Shown here in pieces: positions 14,010 to 55,864 of a stretch of DNA of 64,000 nt. The notes beneath the pieces were generated by a model, which was given only the letters and a program-made list of their open reading frames with translations, had not been told where the DNA came from and did not search any database. The number at the start of each line of letters is the position of its first letter. The first letter of the stretch is position 1. This DNA comes from a marine bacterium B5-7 (lineage in GTDB: Bacteria > Pseudomonadota > Gammaproteobacteria > Arenicellales > CAJQKF01), in assembly GCA_021604525.1 (NCBI GenBank), contig BQJD01000012.1, forward strand, positions 1 through 64,000, written 5' to 3'. The position numbers and the translations under genes were made by a program.

Positions 14010-14777
14010 GTGAAGGCGATCAAGGACCTCGAGCGACTGGAACAATTCGACCGCTGGCTGGCGTCTCCCCAAGGCGTTCAACTGGCCGAGCGCGAATGTG
14101 CTGCTGTTTCAGAACTCGCCCCTGAACGCTATTTTCCAGTGGCGGCACAATTTGGTGTCACCGGTAGCGATTTATTGGTTGATGTTAATGCCGGCCGCAG
14201 GGTCCGCGTAACGGCTCCTGGTGAACATGTGCCTGAAGGTGCAGTATTCAGTGATTTTCATGCACTGCCTTTCGGACACCACAGTATCGATCTGGCGGTA
14301 CTGCCGCACACCCTCGACTTTGTTGCCGACCCCCACGCATTGCTCCGTGAATTGACCGAGGCGATGGCGCCTGACGGTCATATCCTCATCATCGGATTTC
14401 AACCCTACAGTCTGTGGGGAGCGCGCAAGTGGCTATGGCTGCCTCGCGATGTGGTGCCGTGGTGCGGGCATTTTTTTTCAACTTCAAGGATTCAGGACTG
14501 GTTATCGCTAATGGGTTATCGGGTGCGTAGTGGGAAAATGCTGGTGTATAGACCACCAATCTTTCGCCAGGGAGTCCATGAGAAACTGGCCTTTCTCGAA
14601 AGGGCCGGTGACCGCTGGTGGCCCATGTTCGGCGCGGTCTATATGATTCATGCCCAGCTTGAAACCATGCGTATGATTCCGCTTAGACCGCTGTTCAGAA
14701 CAGCCCGTTTGAAACAGAAATTTACCCAACCGGCAGCCCGACGGCTGCGTTCAACACATTCCTCGCAGCGACCATGA
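14010..14777 (+). CDS. YafS-like SAM-dependent methyltransferase-fold protein
   Basis: A 255-residue class I methyltransferase-like protein related by position and sequence to YafS of the mltD-gloB-yafS-rnhA-dnaQ region. Motif I is degenerate, reading LLVDVNAG instead of a Gly-rich LDxGxG. The later motifs around [13 protein letters not shown] and [10 protein letters not shown] are well kept. Start is GTG 14010 with GGAAGGA a few bases upstream. Its stop overlaps the rnhA start as ATGA. Whether it still binds S-adenosylmethionine is uncertain, and no substrate is known to me. Confidence 0.75.
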
Positions 14778-15223
14778 ACGAACACGAGTGGGTCGTGATA
14801 CATACCGATGGTGCCTGTCGAGGCAACCCCGGTCCAGGAGGATGGGGCGCACTGCTTGAATACCGCGGAAAGACGAAAGAATTGAACGGATCGATGCCGG
14901 ACACTACCAACAATCGTATGGAGTTGACCGCAGCGGTCGAGGCGTTACGCTCCTTGAAACGTTCCTGTCGTATCAAGTTGTACACCGACTCCACCTATGT
15001 CAAGCAGGGACTTGGCGAATGGATGCCGCGTTGGAAACGCAACGGTTGGAAAACATCCGCTAAAAAACCGGTACGTAACCAGGACCTGTGGCAGGCCCTG
15101 GATGCCGAGGCTGCCAGGCATGAGATTGAATGGCACTGGGTCAAAGGTCATTCAGGCGACCCCGGTAATGAACGCGCCGATCAACTCGCGAACCTCGCTA
15201 TCGATGAAATGGAGGCTGCCTGA
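14774..15223 (+). CDS. rnhA: Ribonuclease HI
   Basis: A cytosolic endonuclease that degrades RNA in RNA-DNA hybrids. It has 149 residues with all active-site acids: D12 ([10 protein letters not shown]), E50 (NNRMELTA), D72 (YTDSTYV) and the C-terminal D in NERADQLA. The flap His lies in KGHSGD. This is the standard bacterial type 1 length. The start overlaps the methyltransferase stop (ATGA) and its own stop overlaps the dnaQ start (TGATG), so the three genes are one translationally coupled unit. Confidence 0.97.
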
Positions 15224-15915
15224 TGAGCATGCGTCAGGTCGTACTGGACACGGAAACCACCGGTCTTGAACCGGAGCTCGGGCATCGCATAATCGAGATC
15301 GGTTGTGTCGAAATGGTGGATCGACGATTCACCCACAACAACTTCCATTACTATCTGAATCCTGATCGGGAAATCGATCCCGGCGCCATTGAAATACACG
15401 GAATCAAGAATGAGTTTCTGGCCGATAAGCCGCGCTTTGAGGAAATTCGCGAACCGCTGTTGAAATATCTCGATGGCGCTGAACTCATCATTCACAATGC
15501 TGCATTCGACATCGGCTTCCTTGACGCAGAACTGGCGCTGGCAGGAATCGACGTGCGGATTGCCGATATGTGTGGCGTTATAGACTCCCTGCAGGTCGCT
15601 CGCAAACTCCATCCGGGTCAGAAAAACAGTCTCGATGCGTTATGCAAGCGGTACTTCATCGACAACTCGCAACGTACCCTGCACGGTGCACTACTCGATG
15701 CGGAAATACTTGCCGACGTTTACCTTGCAATGACCGGTGGTCAGACGGCGCTTAATCTTGAATTCGATACCCATGCCAGTAACATAGCGCGTGGAGCAGG
15801 CGATAGCCCGGCATTGCGCCCCGGTCTGAATCTTGTGGCAATACGCACAGGTGAGGATGATCTGGAACTACATCAGCGCTGGCTCGATATTTTGCAGGAA
15901 CGTTCCCTGTTCTAG
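15223..15915 (+). CDS. dnaQ: DNA polymerase III epsilon subunit (proofreading exonuclease)
   Basis: The 3'-5' exonuclease of the replicative polymerase. It has 230 residues with the DEDDh motifs: DTETTG (D9, E11), the second acid in HNAAFDIGFLDAE, and the final LHGALLDAEILADVYLAM with His and Asp. The C-terminal region after about 185 would bind the alpha subunit. The rnhA-dnaQ order is classic for Gammaproteobacteria. The TAG stop coincides with the left end of a dispersed repeat (see that entry). Confidence 0.97.
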   Translation: MSMRQVVLDTETTGLEPELGHRIIEIGCVEMVDRRFTHNNFHYYLNPDREIDPGAIEIHGIKNEFLADKPRFEEIREPLLKYLDGAELIIHNAAFDIGFLDAELALAGIDVRIADMCGVIDSLQVARKLHPGQKNSLDALCKRYFIDNSQRTLHGALLDAEILADVYLAMTGGQTALNLEFDTHASNIARGAGDSPALRPGLNLVAIRTGEDDLELHQRWLDILQERSLF

Positions 15916-16051: not shown

Positions 16052-16147
16052 TTGTTAGATTATTATAAAAATTAACGATTTACGTGTAATTACCTCACTC
16101 ACTCATACCCTCGGATACATGTAGCAAGCCCTGTATATTCTGTTCGC

Positions 16148-16176
16148 TTGCGATTTTATTTAATTCGTCGTACAGT
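16148..16176 (+). promoter_or_regulatory. Probable sigma70 promoter of the blaI-like operon
   Basis: TTGCGA at 16148-16153 and TACAGT at 16171-16176 are separated by exactly 17 bases. The expected transcription start (about 16183) falls inside the palindromic operator, so repressor binding would block the promoter, as in bla/mec regulation. Confidence 0.55.
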
Positions 16177-16177
16177 A

Positions 16178-16199
16178 CCTGACTACATATGTAGTCAGG
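16178..16199. promoter_or_regulatory. BlaI/MecI-type operator, perfect 22-bp palindrome
   Basis: The half-site CCTGACTACAT is followed by its exact reverse complement. The core ACTACATATGTAGT matches the TACA...TGTA pattern of BlaI/MecI operators from staphylococcal systems. It overlaps the predicted transcription start and ends at the Shine-Dalgarno sequence of the repressor gene, so autoregulation is expected. A shorter TACATGTA palindrome at 16116-16123 may be a second, weaker site. Confidence 0.8.
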
Positions 16200-16206
16200 A
16201 GTGTCC

Positions 16207-16596
16207 ATGTCAGATCTACCCAAAATCTCGGAAGCCGAGTGGCTGGTGATGGAAATTGTCTGGTCGCGTCATCCGGTCAGTGGAGCGCAAGTCGCAGCCG
16301 AATTGTCGGATAACCCGGGATGGCATCCGCGAACGGTCAAGACCATGCTTGGTCGGCTCGCACACAAAGGTGCAATCGGCTACACCAAGGATCGCAACAC
16401 CCATCACTACTCTCCCCTGATTTCACGTCAGCGCTACCTTGACCACCACAGCAAGAGTCTTATTCAGCGGCTGTTCGGTGGTGATGCATCAGAAGCATTG
16501 AGCCACTTTGTCGAAGTGGCCGATCTCGACAGCGACGATATCGAGGAGTTAAAGGACCTCCTCGATAACAAGAAAAATCGAGACAGCAACAGGTAA
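16207..16596 (+). CDS. blaI: BlaI/MecI-family transcriptional repressor
   Basis: A 129-residue winged-helix DNA-binding repressor. The N-terminal half has the family pattern KISEAEWLVMEIVW, then the recognition helix HPRTVKTMLGRLAHKGAI and the wing segment YTKDRNTHHYSPLI. The C-terminal helices (about 75-125) would dimerise and in BlaI/MecI contain the site cut when the partner protease is activated. I prefer ATG 16207, which has AGGAG six bases upstream; GTG 16201 is also in frame. The gene lies immediately behind its predicted operator and seven bases before the M56 protease gene, the normal order for blaI-blaR1 pairs. Confidence 0.93.
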   Translation: MSDLPKISEAEWLVMEIVWSRHPVSGAQVAAELSDNPGWHPRTVKTMLGRLAHKGAIGYTKDRNTHHYSPLISRQRYLDHHSKSLIQRLFGGDASEALSHFVEVADLDSDDIEELKDLLDNKKNRDSNR

Positions 16597-16602
16597 CAGG
16601 CC

Positions 16603-18600
16603 ATGCTCAATATCACAATGCACTGGCTAATCGACACCACCATCAATGGCAGCCTGGCCATTGTTGTTGTGTTGTCGTTACGCTGGGTGTTTTCACGCTA
16701 TCTCCGTGCCGGTTGGAGCTATGGACTATGGATTGTGGTAGCGATCGCCCTGGTCCTCCCGCAGCCGATCAACATCAGCTCATCAGTTATATTCAGTCGC
16801 TTTCATCCGGCGACGCTCGCCATGCAACTCGGCAAGACATTGAGTGACGATTTATTAGTCGAGCCCCCAGTTGTCCCTCTTGACGAACCGTTAACAATGT
16901 CCATTGATAACCGGTTTTTATCAGCACTTGCTGCATCGACGCCGCAACCAGACGTGTATCCCGCTATCGGGGACGATGGGAACGGGAGCATGGGCAATAC
17001 GAGTGTAGGCGATCCATTAGCACTGATTCATGCGGGTTCACCAACATATCGTCAACATCATCTGGCCATCGTCTTGTTGGTGATCTGGCTTATAGGTGCC
17101 GTAGTAATGCTGCGACGATTTTATGCAGGCTTTCGTGATGCAAGCCGAATGGTGTCGGCAGCCCGGCGATCCAAAAATCATCGCGTACTGAAGCTTTTCT
17201 CAAAGGCGCGAGAAGATTATCAACCAGGTGTCTGGTCATTTAGACCAGCAGTTAAGTTGAGAATTACCGATGCGCTGCGTTGCCCGGTTTCATACGGAAT
17301 TCTTAAACCAGCCATTCTTCTGCCCGCTCGTTTGCAAACGCTGGATGATGCTGAGCTTGAGATGATTTTTCACCACGAGTTAACTCACCACATACGCGGT
17401 GACGTTACAGTGAATGCGGTGATGCTGTGGATTAAATCACTGCATTGGTTTAACCCGATGGTCTGGTTGGCACATCGCCTGATGCGCACCGACTGCGAAC
17501 TGCGTTGCGATCAAGCCGTGACCAGTCACCTGACGCAGTGCGGGCGTGAGGCGTATGGGCATTTGCTGGTCGCGCTGGTCAGTCGCAATGTGGTTGGACA
17601 ACATGCACACGTTACCGCCGGAATGGCAGCCCGTATTGGTGAGATCAGGCGTCGTCTAGTATCACTTCGTGATCCGATCAAGGATGGTGGGGGACGGCGT
17701 GCCGTGATGATTGCCTGTTTCGTTGCGACGATGATGGTCGTGTTGACGTCGCCGGTGATGCCGGCCGAGCAACACAGTATCTTAAGTGTCCATGTCATGT
17801 TGCGTCCGGGTGAATTATCGGCATTACGAACTGCTTCAAAAGCCAAGTCTGCCGTGGATCAGCGACGTACGGATCGTGCGGTACTTGAAGGAATACTGAC
17901 CCGACCAGCCGATGATGGCCATTACCCGGCTGTGGTTCTCATGCATGGTTGTGAAGGGTTCTCCGATTATCAAGATAAGTGGGCTGAGCAACTGGCGCGA
18001 TCCGGTTTCGTGACATTGCGAATAAGCCGGAATGCATTTACCGATAACTATTGTGAACAAACCATTAGCGAGATCAATACCCTGACCGCGCGACAGGTGA
18101 TCGATGCATTCGAGGTGATTGAATACCTCGAAAGCCTTGATTTTGTCGAAGGGAATAACATTGGTTTAATGAGTTGGGGATCGTGGGCGGCCATCGGTGC
18201 AACAGCTCGCTACGGCGCCGGACAATTGTTCGAAGATCGATTTCAATCAGCAGTTGCTGTGTATCCGGACTGTTCGGCAACCTACGGTGGCGAGTTTACT
18301 GCACCATTGATGATCCTGGTGGGCGAGAACGACCAATGGGCAAACGTTGACGGCTGTAAGGCGATTAAGGCCGCTGCCCAATCGCATCCCAAATCAAATG
18401 TCGATCTGAAAATCTATAAAAATGCCCATCACGGATTCGACAATCCCGCTCTCACGAAGCCAACCTCAATACCGTATGCCAGAAGTCTGCTCAATCCGTC
18501 ACAACAGAACGCATACGCCGAATACGACGGTGCGGCGGATGCCGAGGCAAGATCTGCGGTTGAAGCATTTTTTACTGACACCCTGAAACGAGCGCCGTGA
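16603..18600 (+). CDS. BlaR1-like M56 membrane metalloprotease fused to a dienelactone-hydrolase-fold domain
   Basis: A 665-residue inner-membrane protein. Two N-terminal membrane helices (about 8-29 and 37-53) and a third (about 147-168) precede the M56 protease core. Its zinc motif is HELTH at 258-262 and its third ligand is probably E299 in DCELRCD. A fourth helix (about 367-385) leads to an extracytoplasmic C-terminal domain from about 425 to the end. In BlaR1 that place holds a penicillin-binding sensor. Here it is a dienelactone-hydrolase-type alpha/beta hydrolase (LMHGCEGF near 446). D577 (GENDQW) and H610 (NAHHGFD) fit the triad, but the nucleophile position is G526 in MSWGSW. I infer a ligand sensor that triggers cleavage of the BlaI-like repressor. 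Confidence 0.85.
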   Translation: MLNITMHWLIDTTINGSLAIVVVLSLRWVFSRYLRAGWSYGLWIVVAIALVLPQPINISSSVIFSRFHPATLAMQLGKTLSDDLLVEPPVVPLDEPLTMSIDNRFLSALAASTPQPDVYPAIGDDGNGSMGNTSVGDPLALIHAGSPTYRQHHLAIVLLVIWLIGAVVMLRRFYAGFRDASRMVSAARRSKNHRVLKLFSKAREDYQPGVWSFRPAVKLRITDALRCPVSYGILKPAILLPARLQTLDDAELEMIFHHELTHHIRGDVTVNAVMLWIKSLHWFNPMVWLAHRLMRTDCELRCDQAVTSHLTQCGREAYGHLLVALVSRNVVGQHAHVTAGMAARIGEIRRRLVSLRDPIKDGGGRRAVMIACFVATMMVVLTSPVMPAEQHSILSVHVMLRPGELSALRTASKAKSAVDQRRTDRAVLEGILTRPADDGHYPAVVLMHGCEGFSDYQDKWAEQLARSGFVTLRISRNAFTDNYCEQTISEINTLTARQVIDAFEVIEYLESLDFVEGNNIGLMSWGSWAAIGATARYGAGQLFEDRFQSAVAVYPDCSATYGGEFTAPLMILVGENDQWANVDGCKAIKAAAQSHPKSNVDLKIYKNAHHGFDNPALTKPTSIPYARSLLNPSQQNAYAEYDGAADAEARSAVEAFFTDTLKRAP

Positions 18601-21600
18601 ACACACATCCGATCTGGATGATCTCGACTACAATTTATGCAACCTTACTTGCAACCCTGCTGACGACGCTGCCCGCATCGGCGTCCGGACCTTCTGATAA
18701 AACGCAAACGGTCGTCAGTTTTAATGGCAAGCCGTATCCGGTATCAAAGCTTAAGAAACGCATTGCGCGACAGAAGGGCCTCTCACTCGAAGTCGAGGCG
18801 CCGCCCATTCTGCGGGGAATGGTTTACACACCAATCGGTGAAGGTCCACATCCTGCGATTATCCTTGTGCATGACTGCCGGGGTATTCGTGACTATCAGC
18901 GCACCTGGGCAGAACGTCTTCAGGACTGGGGCTATCTGGTGTTGATGCTCGACAGTTTCACTGATCGAAACATCGAATCTACATGCAATGGTCTGGCAGA
19001 AGAGGAAAACAACCGGATTCGCGGTGGACGGGTGGCGGATATATTTGCCGCCCACGACTACCTTATCTCACGCAATGATGTGCAGCGCTTTCGTATCGGT
19101 TTGATGGGCTGGGATTACCACAGCGTACTTGGCGCGGTGGCGCGTGATGGCATACAGCAGTTGTACGAAACACGCTTCATGGGCGCAGTGGCTATCTATC
19201 CAAGCTGTAATTCCACCAGTGGAACGGATTTCGTCACACCGCTATTAGTCCTGGTTGGCGAGGATGACGACTGGGCTCCGGCTGATGAATGTCGGGTGAT
19301 GGAACAAAGCGCCGCTGTCGGTCCGGAGATGCTGAAGGTCGTTTACCTTGAAGATGCAGCACATGGATTTGATGACCCCGAAATGGGCAAGGGTCAGTAT
19401 TTTCCGTCCTTTAGAAATTACTTCAAAAGCCCCGCTAATGGCGTCACCATGGCATACAACGAAGCGGCTGATCATCATGCGCAATTAAAGATACGCCAGT
19501 TTTTGAATTTTGAAATAAAGCATCGACCAATCCCCATGACGCTGGACGATCTCCCGAATCAATACACCGCGGAGGAGATCAGACGAGCCACCTATATTCA
19601 GGCTCCGGAAGAATTTGGACCGAACATGCCGGGCAAGGGAGCATCACTGTTTGATCGGCTGTTCAGTAGCGGCAACGAAAATAATCGTCACTACAATGTA
19701 CCTTATCCTTTTAATAAACTGATCAACGTGCTCGAACGTTATACAGTGAAGGACACGGATTCCGATACGGGCTTGAGAGCCGTGCTAATACCCCAGGGCC
19801 GGTCATTGGTTCGCGATGCAGCCGCACCGGATTTTTTCAAGTATCCGCGAATCGTTGTCGCTGTCGATAGAGAGCCACCTGTGATAGATGGCCACTATGG
19901 GCCATGGCTTCGCGATCGCCTCTACATCGCCTACCAGGAGAAAGCGAAGGCGCTTGAGGTTATTAGCTACAACCCGACCCTGCAGCGTTTCGAGTTTCAG
20001 ATAGTCAAGGACTATGCCCCTGGAGCATCGCCGAAGGTCTTGTATGCAGATCGCTCCTTGTGCGTGAGTTGTCACCAGAATCATGCACCGATTTTTGCCA
20101 ATGCTCCATGGGACGAGACCAATTTTAACAGCCAGGTATTCTCGCGAATCAGCCAGGTGAGAGATGAATTCTATGGCTTGATTCCAGCGGTGCCGGTGGC
20201 GAGTTCGGCCAATGCTATTGATCGTTCATCCAACCGTGCCACTGTGTTGCCGATCCTTAACAGCATCTGGCGCGAGGCTTGCGGGATACCGCGTGACGGA
20301 CGCGAGGCGCTGACCTGTCGGGCGGCGATGGTTAAAGCGATGATTCAATATCGGTTAAGTAACAAGACCGGACTTGATCGTGCGGATACAAACCTGGTCA
20401 GGAATTTTTTCAATCTTGCGGCGACATCATGGCGGCAACGTTGGCCTGGGGGTATCGCGGTGATGCCGTCCAACATCACCGATAGAAATCCGTTTACCGA
20501 GAGTATGCAGGTATCGGCGCGTTTTGATCCACTCACGCCAAGATTACCCGAACACATCTGGTATGCCGACAATACCGGCGATCTCGAACGAGTGATCATG
20601 CTGCTGGCTGACCAGATCAACAGTCATGATATTGCGACTCTTGATGCTGCATTGCAGCCATCAATGCAAGGTGAGTCGTTTAAAAAATACGCCAGTGATT
20701 GCACTATAACCCGTGTGCGGCGTACACCGATCCGTTATCTTGGAGATATTGAATGCTTTGATCGTGAGCGCACGGAGCTGAATAATTTCAGTTTGCGCGG
20801 GACCCTTGATATTGATCTTGAAACGGAGACGGTATCGGGGCGGTTTTTCAGTATCGAGCGGGATGCCGAGTTCATTCTTTACGATCTTGAATTCGATTCA
20901 AGCGAAATTACACCAGGTGCACGCCGTGTGGCCACATTCAAGGTACGACATCGTCGAAGTGACCTCGCAGTTCGGGCGCCTTCGGGCAATAGTGTATTGC
21001 CATTTAAATTGACCATTGGAATCGACGATCTGAAAACATTGCCCGATACCTTTCGCGTCGACCTCGAATTTGCCATCGCCGATGACTTTAAAAAAGTTGA
21101 AGAAGTACTCGGAGATTTGCTGACCGCAGCTATTGGCGACACCAAAGTCAACATCAGTGACAATGCTGCCGATGATCGATTGAATTCCGGGAATATCAAT
21201 GCGGTTGCCAGACGCGAGCGTCTTTTCAGCTCGAGGCCATTCGTCGGCAATCGTTACATGGCACCGATTCTTGAATCTTTGGGCATCGATTCACCGGTTC
21301 GCGACTGCTGCGATAATCCGTTCGTCGGCCCACCGAAAGCAACCGTGGATTTAGCCATGCAAACCGGCCCGGTTGATATTGAAACAGCGTCGGCCAATGA
21401 GCTTATGCTGTCGGTGTGTGGTCGATGTCATCGCAGCGGTGAATCGTTTCCACCAAGCTTTCTTTCCGGCAACGCTGAGCAGATACGTCGCAATATCGCC
21501 ATCTGCGGCGAACGCATTGCCTATCGAATCAACATGTGGAATGTCGACGAAGGGGCCCGTCTGAAGACCCCCATGCCGCCACGCCTGTCACTGGTTGGTC

Positions 21601-21773
21601 CGACAAATCTCAGCCGTGAACAATGGCAACGCTCAGGGGCTATCGATAGGGTCAGCCGCTATGCGTTGGCCGACTCGGAATTACCAGGTGATATAGCCAG
21701 TCAGCTCGCGTATGTATTGTCATTACCCTACGATCGATTAGCCGAGTGTGATGGTACCCTGCTGCTGCACTGA
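18597..21773 (+). CDS. Secreted dienelactone-hydrolase-fold / dihaem cytochrome c fusion protein
   Basis: A 1058-residue exported protein. The signal peptide ends near ASA (29). Residues about 60-310 form a dienelactone-hydrolase fold (ILVHDCRG, GEDDDW with D224, AAHGFD with H256), related to the domain at the end of the preceding gene. The nucleophile position is D173 in MGWDYHS, so ordinary hydrolysis is unlikely. The remaining 740 residues are a family I cannot name. They have two c-type haem sites, CVSCH at 489-493 and CGRCH at 941-945. The GTG start overlaps the protease stop (GTGA), so production is coupled to it. A periplasmic redox or binding role is likely; the substrate is unknown. 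Confidence 0.8.
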   Translation: MNTHPIWMISTTIYATLLATLLTTLPASASGPSDKTQTVVSFNGKPYPVSKLKKRIARQKGLSLEVEAPPILRGMVYTPIGEGPHPAIILVHDCRGIRDYQRTWAERLQDWGYLVLMLDSFTDRNIESTCNGLAEEENNRIRGGRVADIFAAHDYLISRNDVQRFRIGLMGWDYHSVLGAVARDGIQQLYETRFMGAVAIYPSCNSTSGTDFVTPLLVLVGEDDDWAPADECRVMEQSAAVGPEMLKVVYLEDAAHGFDDPEMGKGQYFPSFRNYFKSPANGVTMAYNEAADHHAQLKIRQFLNFEIKHRPIPMTLDDLPNQYTAEEIRRATYIQAPEEFGPNMPGKGASLFDRLFSSGNENNRHYNVPYPFNKLINVLERYTVKDTDSDTGLRAVLIPQGRSLVRDAAAPDFFKYPRIVVAVDREPPVIDGHYGPWLRDRLYIAYQEKAKALEVISYNPTLQRFEFQIVKDYAPGASPKVLYADRSLCVSCHQNHAPIFANAPWDETNFNSQVFSRISQVRDEFYGLIPAVPVASSANAIDRSSNRATVLPILNSIWREACGIPRDGREALTCRAAMVKAMIQYRLSNKTGLDRADTNLVRNFFNLAATSWRQRWPGGIAVMPSNITDRNPFTESMQVSARFDPLTPRLPEHIWYADNTGDLERVIMLLADQINSHDIATLDAALQPSMQGESFKKYASDCTITRVRRTPIRYLGDIECFDRERTELNNFSLRGTLDIDLETETVSGRFFSIERDAEFILYDLEFDSSEITPGARRVATFKVRHRRSDLAVRAPSGNSVLPFKLTIGIDDLKTLPDTFRVDLEFAIADDFKKVEEVLGDLLTAAIGDTKVNISDNAADDRLNSGNINAVARRERLFSSRPFVGNRYMAPILESLGIDSPVRDCCDNPFVGPPKATVDLAMQTGPVDIETASANELMLSVCGRCHRSGESFPPSFLSGNAEQIRRNIAICGERIAYRINMWNVDEGARLKTPMPPRLSLVGPTNLSREQWQRSGAIDRVSRYALADSELPGDIASQLAYVLSLPYDRLAECDGTLLLH

Positions 21774-21814: not shown

Positions 21815-24184
21815 TCAGTGTTCTTGACCGGCCAGATACAACCAGGTTTCAACCACCGTATCGGGATTCAGGGATACGCTCTCGATGCCCTCATCCATTA
21901 GCCAGCGTGCGAGATCGGGATGATCGGAGGGTCCCTGACCGCATATACCGATATACTTACCGGCCTTGCGGCATGCCGAGATTGCCATGGATAACAACAT
22001 CTTGACTGCCGGGTCGCGCTCATCGAACAGATGGGAGATGACGCCGGAATCGCGATCCAGCCCGAGGCTGAGTTGAGTCAGGTCGTTTGAACCGATGGAA
22101 AAACCATCAAAATATTCAAGGAAGGAATCCGCCAGCAAAGCATTGGACGGAATTTCACACATCATGATGATTTTCAGATCGTTTTCGCCGCGCACCAGGC
22201 CATTATCAGCTAACAGTTCGGTGACTTGCCGTGCTTCATCTACGGTGCGGACAAACGGCACCATAATCCACATGTTGGTCAGCCCCATCTCGTCGCGAAC
22301 ATATTTTAATGCCCGGCATTCGAGTTCGAAACATTCGCGAAATCCGCTATCGATATAACGAGATGCTCCCCTGAATCCGAGCATCGGGTTTTCTTCCGAT
22401 GGCTCGAATAACGGTCCGCCGATCATGTTGGCATATTCGTTGGATTTAAAATCCGACAGACGAATGATGACCGGTCGCGGTGCAAACGCCGCAGCTAAGG
22501 TAGCGATTCCCTCGGTCAATTTATTAATGTAAAAAGTTACCGGATCAGTGTAGCCCGCTGAAACCGAGTCGATGCTGGTGCGCACGTCTTCACTCATCTG
22601 GTCATAGTGCAGGGCTGCCTTGGGATGAATGCCGATGGTGTTGTTGATGATGAATTCGAGCCGCGCGAGTCCGATGCCGTAATTCGGTAGCCGGGAAAAA
22701 TCAAAAGCCCGCTCCGGATTACCCACATTAAGCATGATTTTGAACTCGATATCCGGCATGTTATCCAGGGAGATGCGCTTCAATTCGTAATCGAGATGGC
22801 CGGCGTATACAAACCCGGTGTCGCCTTCGCTGCACGATACCGTGACCTCATCACCGTCATTCACTGCTCTGGTCGCATTGCCGCAGCCAACCACAGCGGG
22901 TACACCCAGTTCACGGGCAATAATTGCCGCGTGACAGGTTCGCCCACCGCGATTGGTGACAATGGCGCTGGCGCGTTTCATTACCGGCTCCCAGTCCGGG
23001 TCGGTCATGTCGGTTACCAGGATATCGCCTTCCTTAACTCGAGATAAATGTTCGATATCCGGCACAATGCGCACAACCCCGCTACCGATCCGCTGACCGA
23101 TTGCACGCCCTTCACACAATACCTTGCCACGACTTTTTAATTCAAATCGCTCCAGCACCTGACCGTCTGAACGGCTTTGCACGGTCTCAGGCCGTGCCTG
23201 CAAGATGTACAGTTTGCCGGTGTTGCCGTCGCGTCCCCATTCGATATCCATCGGCCGTTGATAATGCTGTTCAATAGTCACGGCCATGCGCGCCAGGGCA
23301 ATGACATCCTCATCAGTCAATGAGAAATGCTGTCGTTCGTCCGTCGAAGTATCGACAATAGTTACCGGATTTTCTTCGTCAGCATTGGCATAGATCATCT
23401 TGATGAGCTTGGAGCCGAGGTTCCGCTTTAATATGGACGGCCTGTTTGCAGCCAACGCATCTTTATAAACATAAAACTCATCCGGGTTCACAGAGCCCTG
23501 AACCACGCATTCACCCAGACCGAAGGATGAGGTGATAAATACGGCACGGTCGAATCCGGATTCGGTATCCAGGGAAAACATGACACCACTGGATCCGATA
23601 TCGCTTCTAACCATGTACTGGATGCCGGCTGACAGGGCGACGTCTGCATGGCTGAATCCCTGGTGCACGCGATAGGAAATGGCGCGATCGTTAAATAGTG
23701 ACGCGAACACCTGTTTCACCGATGTCAGAATGTTATCGATGCCGCGAACGTTCAGGAAGGTTTCCTGCTGGCCGGCAAAAGAGGCCTCAGGCAGATCTTC
23801 GGCAGTGGCCGATGAGCGTACTGCAACGGCGGTATCAGCGTTGTCGCCGACGAGTTCATGCCAGGCGCTGGTGATATCGCTCTGCAGATCATCTGGCAAG
23901 GGTGTTTCCTCGACCCAGGCGCGTATCTTTTGTCCGGCGGTGGTGAGTGCGGTGACGTCGTCGACATCCAGGGAATCAAGAATCGAGTTAATTCTCGTAT
24001 CGAGGCCATTATGGGCAAGAAATCGCCGATAGGCGTCGGCGGTGGTCGCAAAACCATCCGGCACATCGATACCAGCGCCCTTTAAAGAGCTGATCATTTC
24101 CCCAAGTGAGGCATTTTTGCCGCCCACGACAGGCACATCGGACATGCCGAGTTCCTTGAACCAGATGAGGTTTTCATTCATCAA
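21815..24184 (-). CDS. ppsA: Phosphoenolpyruvate synthase
   Basis: A cytosolic gluconeogenic enzyme that converts pyruvate, ATP and water to phosphoenolpyruvate, AMP and phosphate. It has 789 residues in three domains: the N-terminal ATP-grasp domain starting with [12 protein letters not shown]-like sequence, the swivelling His domain with [12 protein letters not shown] near residue 420, and the C-terminal PEP/pyruvate barrel ending with [12 protein letters not shown]. The length is normal. It is divergent from its own regulator gene ppsR, a common pairing. It would also draw on pyruvate released by sulfolactate desulfonation. Confidence 0.97.
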
Positions 24185-46971: not shown

Positions 46972-47904
46972 GTGATGCAAATTGAGAGCGTGACTGATTT
47001 TCTCTCAAGGTTGTCCAATTCAGCCGGGGTTGTCCTTCTTTATCATGCGACTTTTGCTCGTGTACCTTCGAGTCTGGCCAAGGGGCTGCACAATATCCGA
47101 CCGGAGATCTTGCGCACGCAGATTGAAGGACTTGCACGTTATTTCAAATTTATCGATGTCGATGAATTCGCCATCCTGGACGACCCGCGTGGCTATGCGG
47201 CGGTCAGTTTCGACGATGGCTATCGCTGTATATTCGATGAGGCTTTACCAATATTTGAAGAACTGAATATACCGATCACGGTGTACTTGAACGGTATTAA
47301 TTTTGCCGGTGGCAGTTTCTGGAGAGACAAGGTCAGGCTGGTTGAAAATCACGGCTGGACGAGTGAGTTCGAACGTTTTAGTGACGCCTTCAAGTCGGTT
47401 TCCGGAAAACGTTTTTATCGTTACAGTAAAAATCCGGCAATCAACAGCCGCATCATCGACCAGGAACTCGATCGGTTTATCGCCCATAAAGGCGGTATCG
47501 ATACACGTGTAACGGCGTGTGTCGATAACATCGACGATCTGCCGCGGCACCCGTTGGTTGGTTATGGCAATCACAGTCAGCATCACTACGTGCTGTCATC
47601 GCTGGACGCCACGGAACAGCATCTGGAAATTACTGCGACCGATGATTTACTGGAACGTATTGAGAATGCTCATATCAGCAAATTGTTCTCAGTGCCTTTC
47701 GGTGATGTGGGAGATTTTAACGAGGAGACCGTACGCATCCTCAAAGACGCAAACTATAATCATGTCTTAATGAGCCGAGGGCATGCGCATCGCGGTAATC
47801 ACAGCGTTCATGGCATCACTGCGGTGGAGCGTTGCATGCCCGCCGACACGATAGTTGACCTCGGTCTTGGTGCTTTGCGAACCAATAAGCACCATTATGG
47901 TTAA
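46972..47904 (+). CDS. Polysaccharide deacetylase family protein
   Basis: A 310-residue NodB-fold deacetylase. Motif 1 is AVSFDDGY (the catalytic base and metal Asp). Motif 2 is GNHSQHH with the metal His residues. Motif 3 is within KLFSVPFGDVGDF. An insertion of about 90 residues between motifs 1 and 2 is typical of the group acting on cell-surface sugars. No signal peptide is seen, so it may act in the cytosol on lipid-linked sugars. Start is GTG 46972 or ATG 46975; neither has a strong ribosome site. It starts 32 bp after the M24 gene. Confidence 0.85.
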   Translation: MMQIESVTDFLSRLSNSAGVVLLYHATFARVPSSLAKGLHNIRPEILRTQIEGLARYFKFIDVDEFAILDDPRGYAAVSFDDGYRCIFDEALPIFEELNIPITVYLNGINFAGGSFWRDKVRLVENHGWTSEFERFSDAFKSVSGKRFYRYSKNPAINSRIIDQELDRFIAHKGGIDTRVTACVDNIDDLPRHPLVGYGNHSQHHYVLSSLDATEQHLEITATDDLLERIENAHISKLFSVPFGDVGDFNEETVRILKDANYNHVLMSRGHAHRGNHSVHGITAVERCMPADTIVDLGLGALRTNKHHYG

Positions 47905-55842: not shown

Positions 55843-55864
55843 ATAACTCTTATATAAGAGTTAT
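55843..55864. promoter_or_regulatory. Perfect 22-bp palindrome, likely operator of the GntR regulator
   Basis: ATAACTCTTAT is followed by its exact inverse ATAAGAGTTAT. It lies 73 bases before the regulator start codon and nine bases upstream of the -35 box of the suyA promoter. That position fits either activation of suyA or autorepression of the regulator. Confidence 0.7.

Follow-up and report, generated by a model that had tools for sequence, protein, structure and literature searches.

A BlaI/M56 receptor variant with a dienelactone-hydrolase fold in the sensor position, encoded together with a DLH-dihaem protein

In the window (the whole stretch of 64,000 nucleotides analysed here), positions 16201-21773 carry three genes on the plus strand. 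The first encodes a BlaI repressor and the second an M56 protease of the BlaR1 type with a dienelactone-hydrolase (DLH) fold at its C-terminal end; the third encodes a secreted protein that combines a DLH domain with a dihaem part. Our data demonstrate that this three-gene module is real, and that it is a variant of the BlaI/M56 receptor systems of which one case is known so far. We see about even chances that it forms a self-contained, autoregulated envelope-sensing operon with a dead hydrolase as sensor and a dihaem protein as output. Since the sensor fold and the effector's first domain are related to each other, the switch probably senses something that the dihaem effector also binds.

A gap of 6 bp separates blaI from the M56 gene, and the GTG start codon of the effector gene (18597) overlaps the M56 stop codon by 4 nt. 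The earlier note on this DNA had listed the same parts (BlaI repressor, M56 protease, effector), which are confirmed by Pfam matches and motifs, and had given a spacing of 4-7 bp; the close packing holds, and the figures are corrected to the values given here. From dnaQ to ppsA, operon and flanks alike, GC content is even, and signs of a chimaera are absent. The operon is flanked by a conserved methyltransferase-rnhA-dnaQ block (14010-15915) on one side and by ppsA (21815-24184) on the other. In relatives of the same genus or order, the stretch read after dnaQ contained neither the operon nor ppsA, and the block is kept (in relative G003, its rnhA-dnaQ part). The M56 gene of the operon is the only one in the genome above the family cut-off, and the effector gene is the genome's only member of its dihaem family.

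The repressor gene (16207..16596) encodes a protein of the BlaI/MecI/CopY family (Pfam PF03965 Penicillinase_R, E=4e-33). ATG at 16207 is more likely to be its start codon, because AGGAGT sits just upstream; GTG at 16201 is possible. Identity to the BlaI proteins of other M56 loci is 31-40% for 17 of 18, and 17% for the last. Comparison by eye with S. aureus BlaI tentatively points to the His-Phe bond in ALSHFVEV as a candidate cleavage site.

Operators of the TACA-N2-TGTA type are typical of the BlaI/MecI family. Such a core is present at 16184-16193, within a perfect palindrome of 22 bp (CCTGACTACATATGTAGTCAGG, 16178-16199) that overlaps the blaI ribosome-binding site, includes TACATATGTA and matches GAYTACANNTGTARTC. 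Of 17 BlaI genes adjoining other M56 genes, 12 have a TACANNTGTA core, mostly inside GATTACANNTGTAATC, ahead of the gene or where it begins, and four further genes of these 17 have a near variant of it. The 4.4-Mb genome holds one exact match to GAYTACANNTGTARTC, which is this predicted operator. Three sites with one mismatch were counted, no more than in the control, and the 20-bp operator core is unique in the genome with up to 3 mismatches allowed. The palindrome, the comparative cores and the sole exact copy thus bear out the operator that had been predicted before. Since the operator has a single genomic copy and one-mismatch sites stay at the control level, the regulon, as judged from the sequence, probably consists of this operon alone. 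Elsewhere in the window we noted one other perfect 22-bp palindrome (ATAACTCTTATATAAGAGTTAT, 55843-55864) and, outside the operon, a second TACANNTGTA match (TACACGTGTA, 47502-47511).

The second gene (16603..18600) encodes a 665-aa membrane metalloprotease of the BlaR1 type (PF05569, E=1e-48) with a C-terminal DLH fold (PF01738, E=2e-12). The M56 family match confirms the previously assigned zinc-binding and catalytic motif HELTH (residues 258-262; 17374..17388), and BlaR1 (8exs) aligns to the receptor over the HEXXH region and the helices after it. Four hydrophobic segments with positive residues inside, the last transmembrane helix being residues 368-386 (17704..17760), predict the BlaR1 arrangement, with the HELTH protease cytoplasmic and the C-terminal domain on the outer side. 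The AF2 model of the receptor (mean pLDDT 74.8) is confident for the protease core and the DLH domain, and of low confidence for the outer loop (about residues 56-150). No penicillin-binding (class D beta-lactamase-like) sensor was found in the receptor; according to Pfam and the AF2 model its C-terminal domain has a DLH fold. This supports the earlier view that such a fold takes the sensor position of BlaR1, and the predicted topology places it on the outer face. Against the NCBIfam model blaR1_generic the receptor scores 144 bits versus a cut-off of 400. The C-terminal parts of six other M56 proteins were also scanned and matched no Pfam family, so that their sensors are unnamed too.

The predicted periplasmic sensor domain comprises residues 391-663 of the receptor (17773..18591), and the DLH domain of the effector residues 33-309 (18693..19523; DLH Pfam E=1e-13). 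In AF2 models both align to the dienelactone hydrolase 3f67 (sensor: Z 23.4, rmsd 2.6, 219 residues; effector: Z 24.9). The receptor model was built with DLH relatives in its alignment and is therefore not independent of the sequence assignment. The two domains share 33% identity, and the effector does begin with a related fold, as had been proposed. In the sensor the elbow reads SWGSW, with neither Ser nor Cys at the aligned nucleophile position, and that of the effector, GWDYH, lacks them as well. Stand-alone DLH relatives mostly have G-[WF]-S-x-G-G or G-[FY]-C-x-G-G at this place, and the three other effector fusions have GWAYD, AWGPR and GWGDA. A few stand-alone DLH proteins, for example L072 (GWGLGG) and L173 (GWANGA), are also without the nucleophile. 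All five fused DLH domains lack it, four of them with a two-residue gap at the elbow. The Asp and His positions are retained in both window domains and in the fusion protein from Chromatiales, and are less clear in the other two fusions. Since most stand-alone relatives keep a nucleophile that is missing in both window domains, the latter, judged by sequence, are probably binding modules and not enzymes.

Sequence comparison indicates that the sensor and effector DLH domains are of common origin and belong to one clade, the support for which depends on long branches. In a tree of 52 rows the five fused domains form one group (98/88); in a tree of 20 rows that keeps the long branches, support for the fused clade was 51/44, and with the long branches removed the receptor domain, the window effector and the Chromatiales effector grouped at 99/98. 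The closest partner of the receptor domain was not told apart (window pair 81/58; AU p 0.57 for the other pairing). We can therefore propose only tentatively that the receptor acquired its sensor domain from the very protein under its control, so that a dead hydrolase common to both would recognise the same molecule; we regard this as possible, if rather doubtful. If true, it would show how M56 receptors gain new inputs. The nucleophile loss and the common origin of both domains are additions to what the earlier note contained.

The effector (18597..21773; 1058 aa) has an N-terminal signal peptide. Its residues from about 320 to 1058 belong to an unnamed family of dihaem cytochromes, as seen from two CXXCH motifs and family similarity; a family profile that includes the window protein matches the effector at E=4e-212. 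The motifs, CVSCH for haem 1 (residues 489-493; 20061..20075) and CGRCH for haem 2 (941-945; 21417..21431), are in agreement with the previous designation as a dihaem protein. Across 41 aligned family members no conserved distal His or Met is present for haem 1 (C489-H493). For haem 2 (C941-H945) the candidate distal ligand Met993 (21573-21575) is conserved in 98% of these members. On the model of dihaem peroxidases, this pattern hints at a haem that is open and possibly catalytic beside another that transfers electrons.

Scanning GTDB genomes with the effector alignment yielded 213 relatives, of which 80 were kept. Only three other family members among these 80 have a DLH domain, all from gammaproteobacteria, and blastp with the window proteins detected no BlaI or M56 protein in the fetched flanks of these three loci, one of which (L076) lies on the same contig as G272. 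When 66 family loci were compared, an unnamed lipoprotein-like protein of 300 aa was a neighbour in 40, a dihaem protein of approximately 870 aa in 38 and a RoxA-like di-haem cytochrome c peroxidase (NF040606) in 35; these counts are rough, as the clusters include some ORFs that overlap or lie on the opposite strand. For the family (L079-L155), which often adjoins the lipoprotein-like protein and RoxA-like peroxidases, neither Pfam nor NCBIfam has a dedicated model. The effector itself matched no RoxA-like or CytoC_perox model in Pfam or NCBIfam, and a profile search of PDB sequences for the dihaem part gave weak cytochrome c matches only. In the structure comparisons with the PDB, both lists of matches were taken up by the DLH domain. 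A RoxA-like query, run without a positive control, had no match in this genome.

A second M56-DLH fusion was not found in overlapping, non-exhaustive draws of 60, 109, 398 and 369 genomes (relatives, order, phylum and class), in 72,556 plasmids at 80% coverage or in a viral scan. In the genomes and plasmids sampled, the layout has thus been met only once, and the search for further fusions that the earlier note had proposed returned none. That note had named homologues in which the three genes are never neighbours as an argument against its reading. This is in part what we found: three DLH-dihaem relatives stand without BlaI/M56, and there is no second fusion in the sample. The other argument that it had named, a C-terminal domain that has no hydrolase fold or does not face outwards, is contradicted by the predicted structure and topology. 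The note knew of no described system with this layout; among the papers searched, none pairs peptidase M56 with dienelactone hydrolase, and a wider search turned up nothing relevant. A cytochrome controlled by a BlaI/M56 pair, which the note had not mentioned, is already known from PetRP (PMC7896320).

Gene order, domains, topology, operator, nucleophile loss and common DLH origin were obtained from sequence, comparison or models, and from there we infer ligand, activation, repressor cleavage and haem chemistry as follows. With its dimers on the palindrome at 16178-16199, BlaI would keep all three genes repressed. The receptor is predicted to cross the membrane four times, with the zinc protease in the cytoplasm and the DLH domain in the periplasm. 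Because its nucleophile is lost, the sensor would not turn its ligand over but hold it in the former active-site cleft; the ligand is probably an ester, a lactone or an aromatic acid. Once the cleft is occupied, the sensor would shift against the transmembrane helices and the long outer loop and activate the HELTH site, which would then cleave BlaI and derepress the operon. The dead DLH domain of the effector may recruit the same or a similar molecule to the haem centre for oxidation or reduction. In favour of this reading we count the families and motifs, the operator with its comparative support and single exact copy, a DLH fold in each of the two proteins, the nucleophile loss, the fused clade, the presence in the genome of only one M56 gene above the cut-off and one dihaem-family gene, and the BlaR1 precedent. 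Counted against it are the occurrence of the module in one genome only, the effector relatives without BlaI/M56, the fused-clade support of 51/44 with long branches, and the poorly modelled outer loop.

The presence of two related DLH domains within one operon (33% identity, one clade), both deprived of the catalytic nucleophile, would also suit a receptor that senses the product of its own operon: the sensor domain would pair with the effector domain, or compete with it for a partner, and so read effector amount or haem loading. However, the DLH-dihaem protein exists elsewhere without such a receptor adjoining, and we consider product sensing unlikely. Somewhat less likely again is a response to metal or haem stress as for PetRP/CopY, in which the protease or the transmembrane segments would receive the signal and the DLH domain would be no more than a scaffold. 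PetRP is a BlaI/M56 pair that controls cytochrome c6 and plastocyanin in response to copper (PMC7896320), and the present system likewise has a c-type cytochrome as output, but the DLH domain occupies the very place of the BlaR1 sensor and is related to the effector domain.

That the DLH domains have remained enzymes, with hydrolysis by another nucleophile or by water as the driver of signalling or detoxification, appears improbable. Both window domains keep Asp and His of the triad, and Asp173 of the effector is near the nucleophile position; in the five fused domains, however, the elbow carries residues such as Gly, Asp or Ala, with the two-residue gap in four, while Ser or Cys is kept in most stand-alone relatives. 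We give the least credence to a BlaI/M56 pair that came to lie by chance beside an unrelated DLH-dihaem gene. Although the effector stands elsewhere without BlaI/M56, such an accident is at odds with the tight spacing with overlapping stop and start codons, the single operator, the related DLH domains in both proteins and the even base composition.

BlaI/M56 pairs are common, and few have a known input. In the envelope-sensing operon that we favour, the sensor fold is recognisable and has a relative in the protein that the operon itself produces. The search for the ligand is thereby narrowed, and a way in which BlaI/M56 receptors may acquire specificity becomes testable. The module also draws attention to a dihaem family without a name, which has more than 200 members and is linked to RoxA-like oxygenase/peroxidase genes. 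The effector belongs to this family with its residues from about 320 to 1058, whereas nearly all other members seen have no DLH domain. With the dienelactone hydrolases (PF01738) both window domains share the fold (Z 23-25 to 3f67) and the retained Asp and His, but not the Cys or Ser nucleophile expected at the elbow (GWSxGG/GYCxGG).

Like BlaI-BlaR1 and MecI-MecR1, whose operators are of the TACA-N2-TGTA type, the system combines a BlaI repressor and such an operator with a four-helix M56 protease that carries HEXXH and whose C-terminal sensor, on the outer side, is related to an enzyme family. In PetRP of cyanobacteria, a copper-responsive pair that swaps plastocyanin for cytochrome c6, a BlaI-type regulator and a BlaR1-type protease likewise control a c-type cytochrome; its response is to copper, and the excerpts of the report mention no DLH sensor (PMC7896320). 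BlaR1 cleaves BlaI directly, has a sensor related to class D beta-lactamases, and signals with involvement of the outer loop and sensor displacement (PMC9834060). Unlike BlaR1, the receptor described here remains far below the blaR1_generic cut-off, its sensor has a DLH fold without a nucleophile where BlaR1 has a penicillin-binding one, and the output of the system is a dihaem protein.
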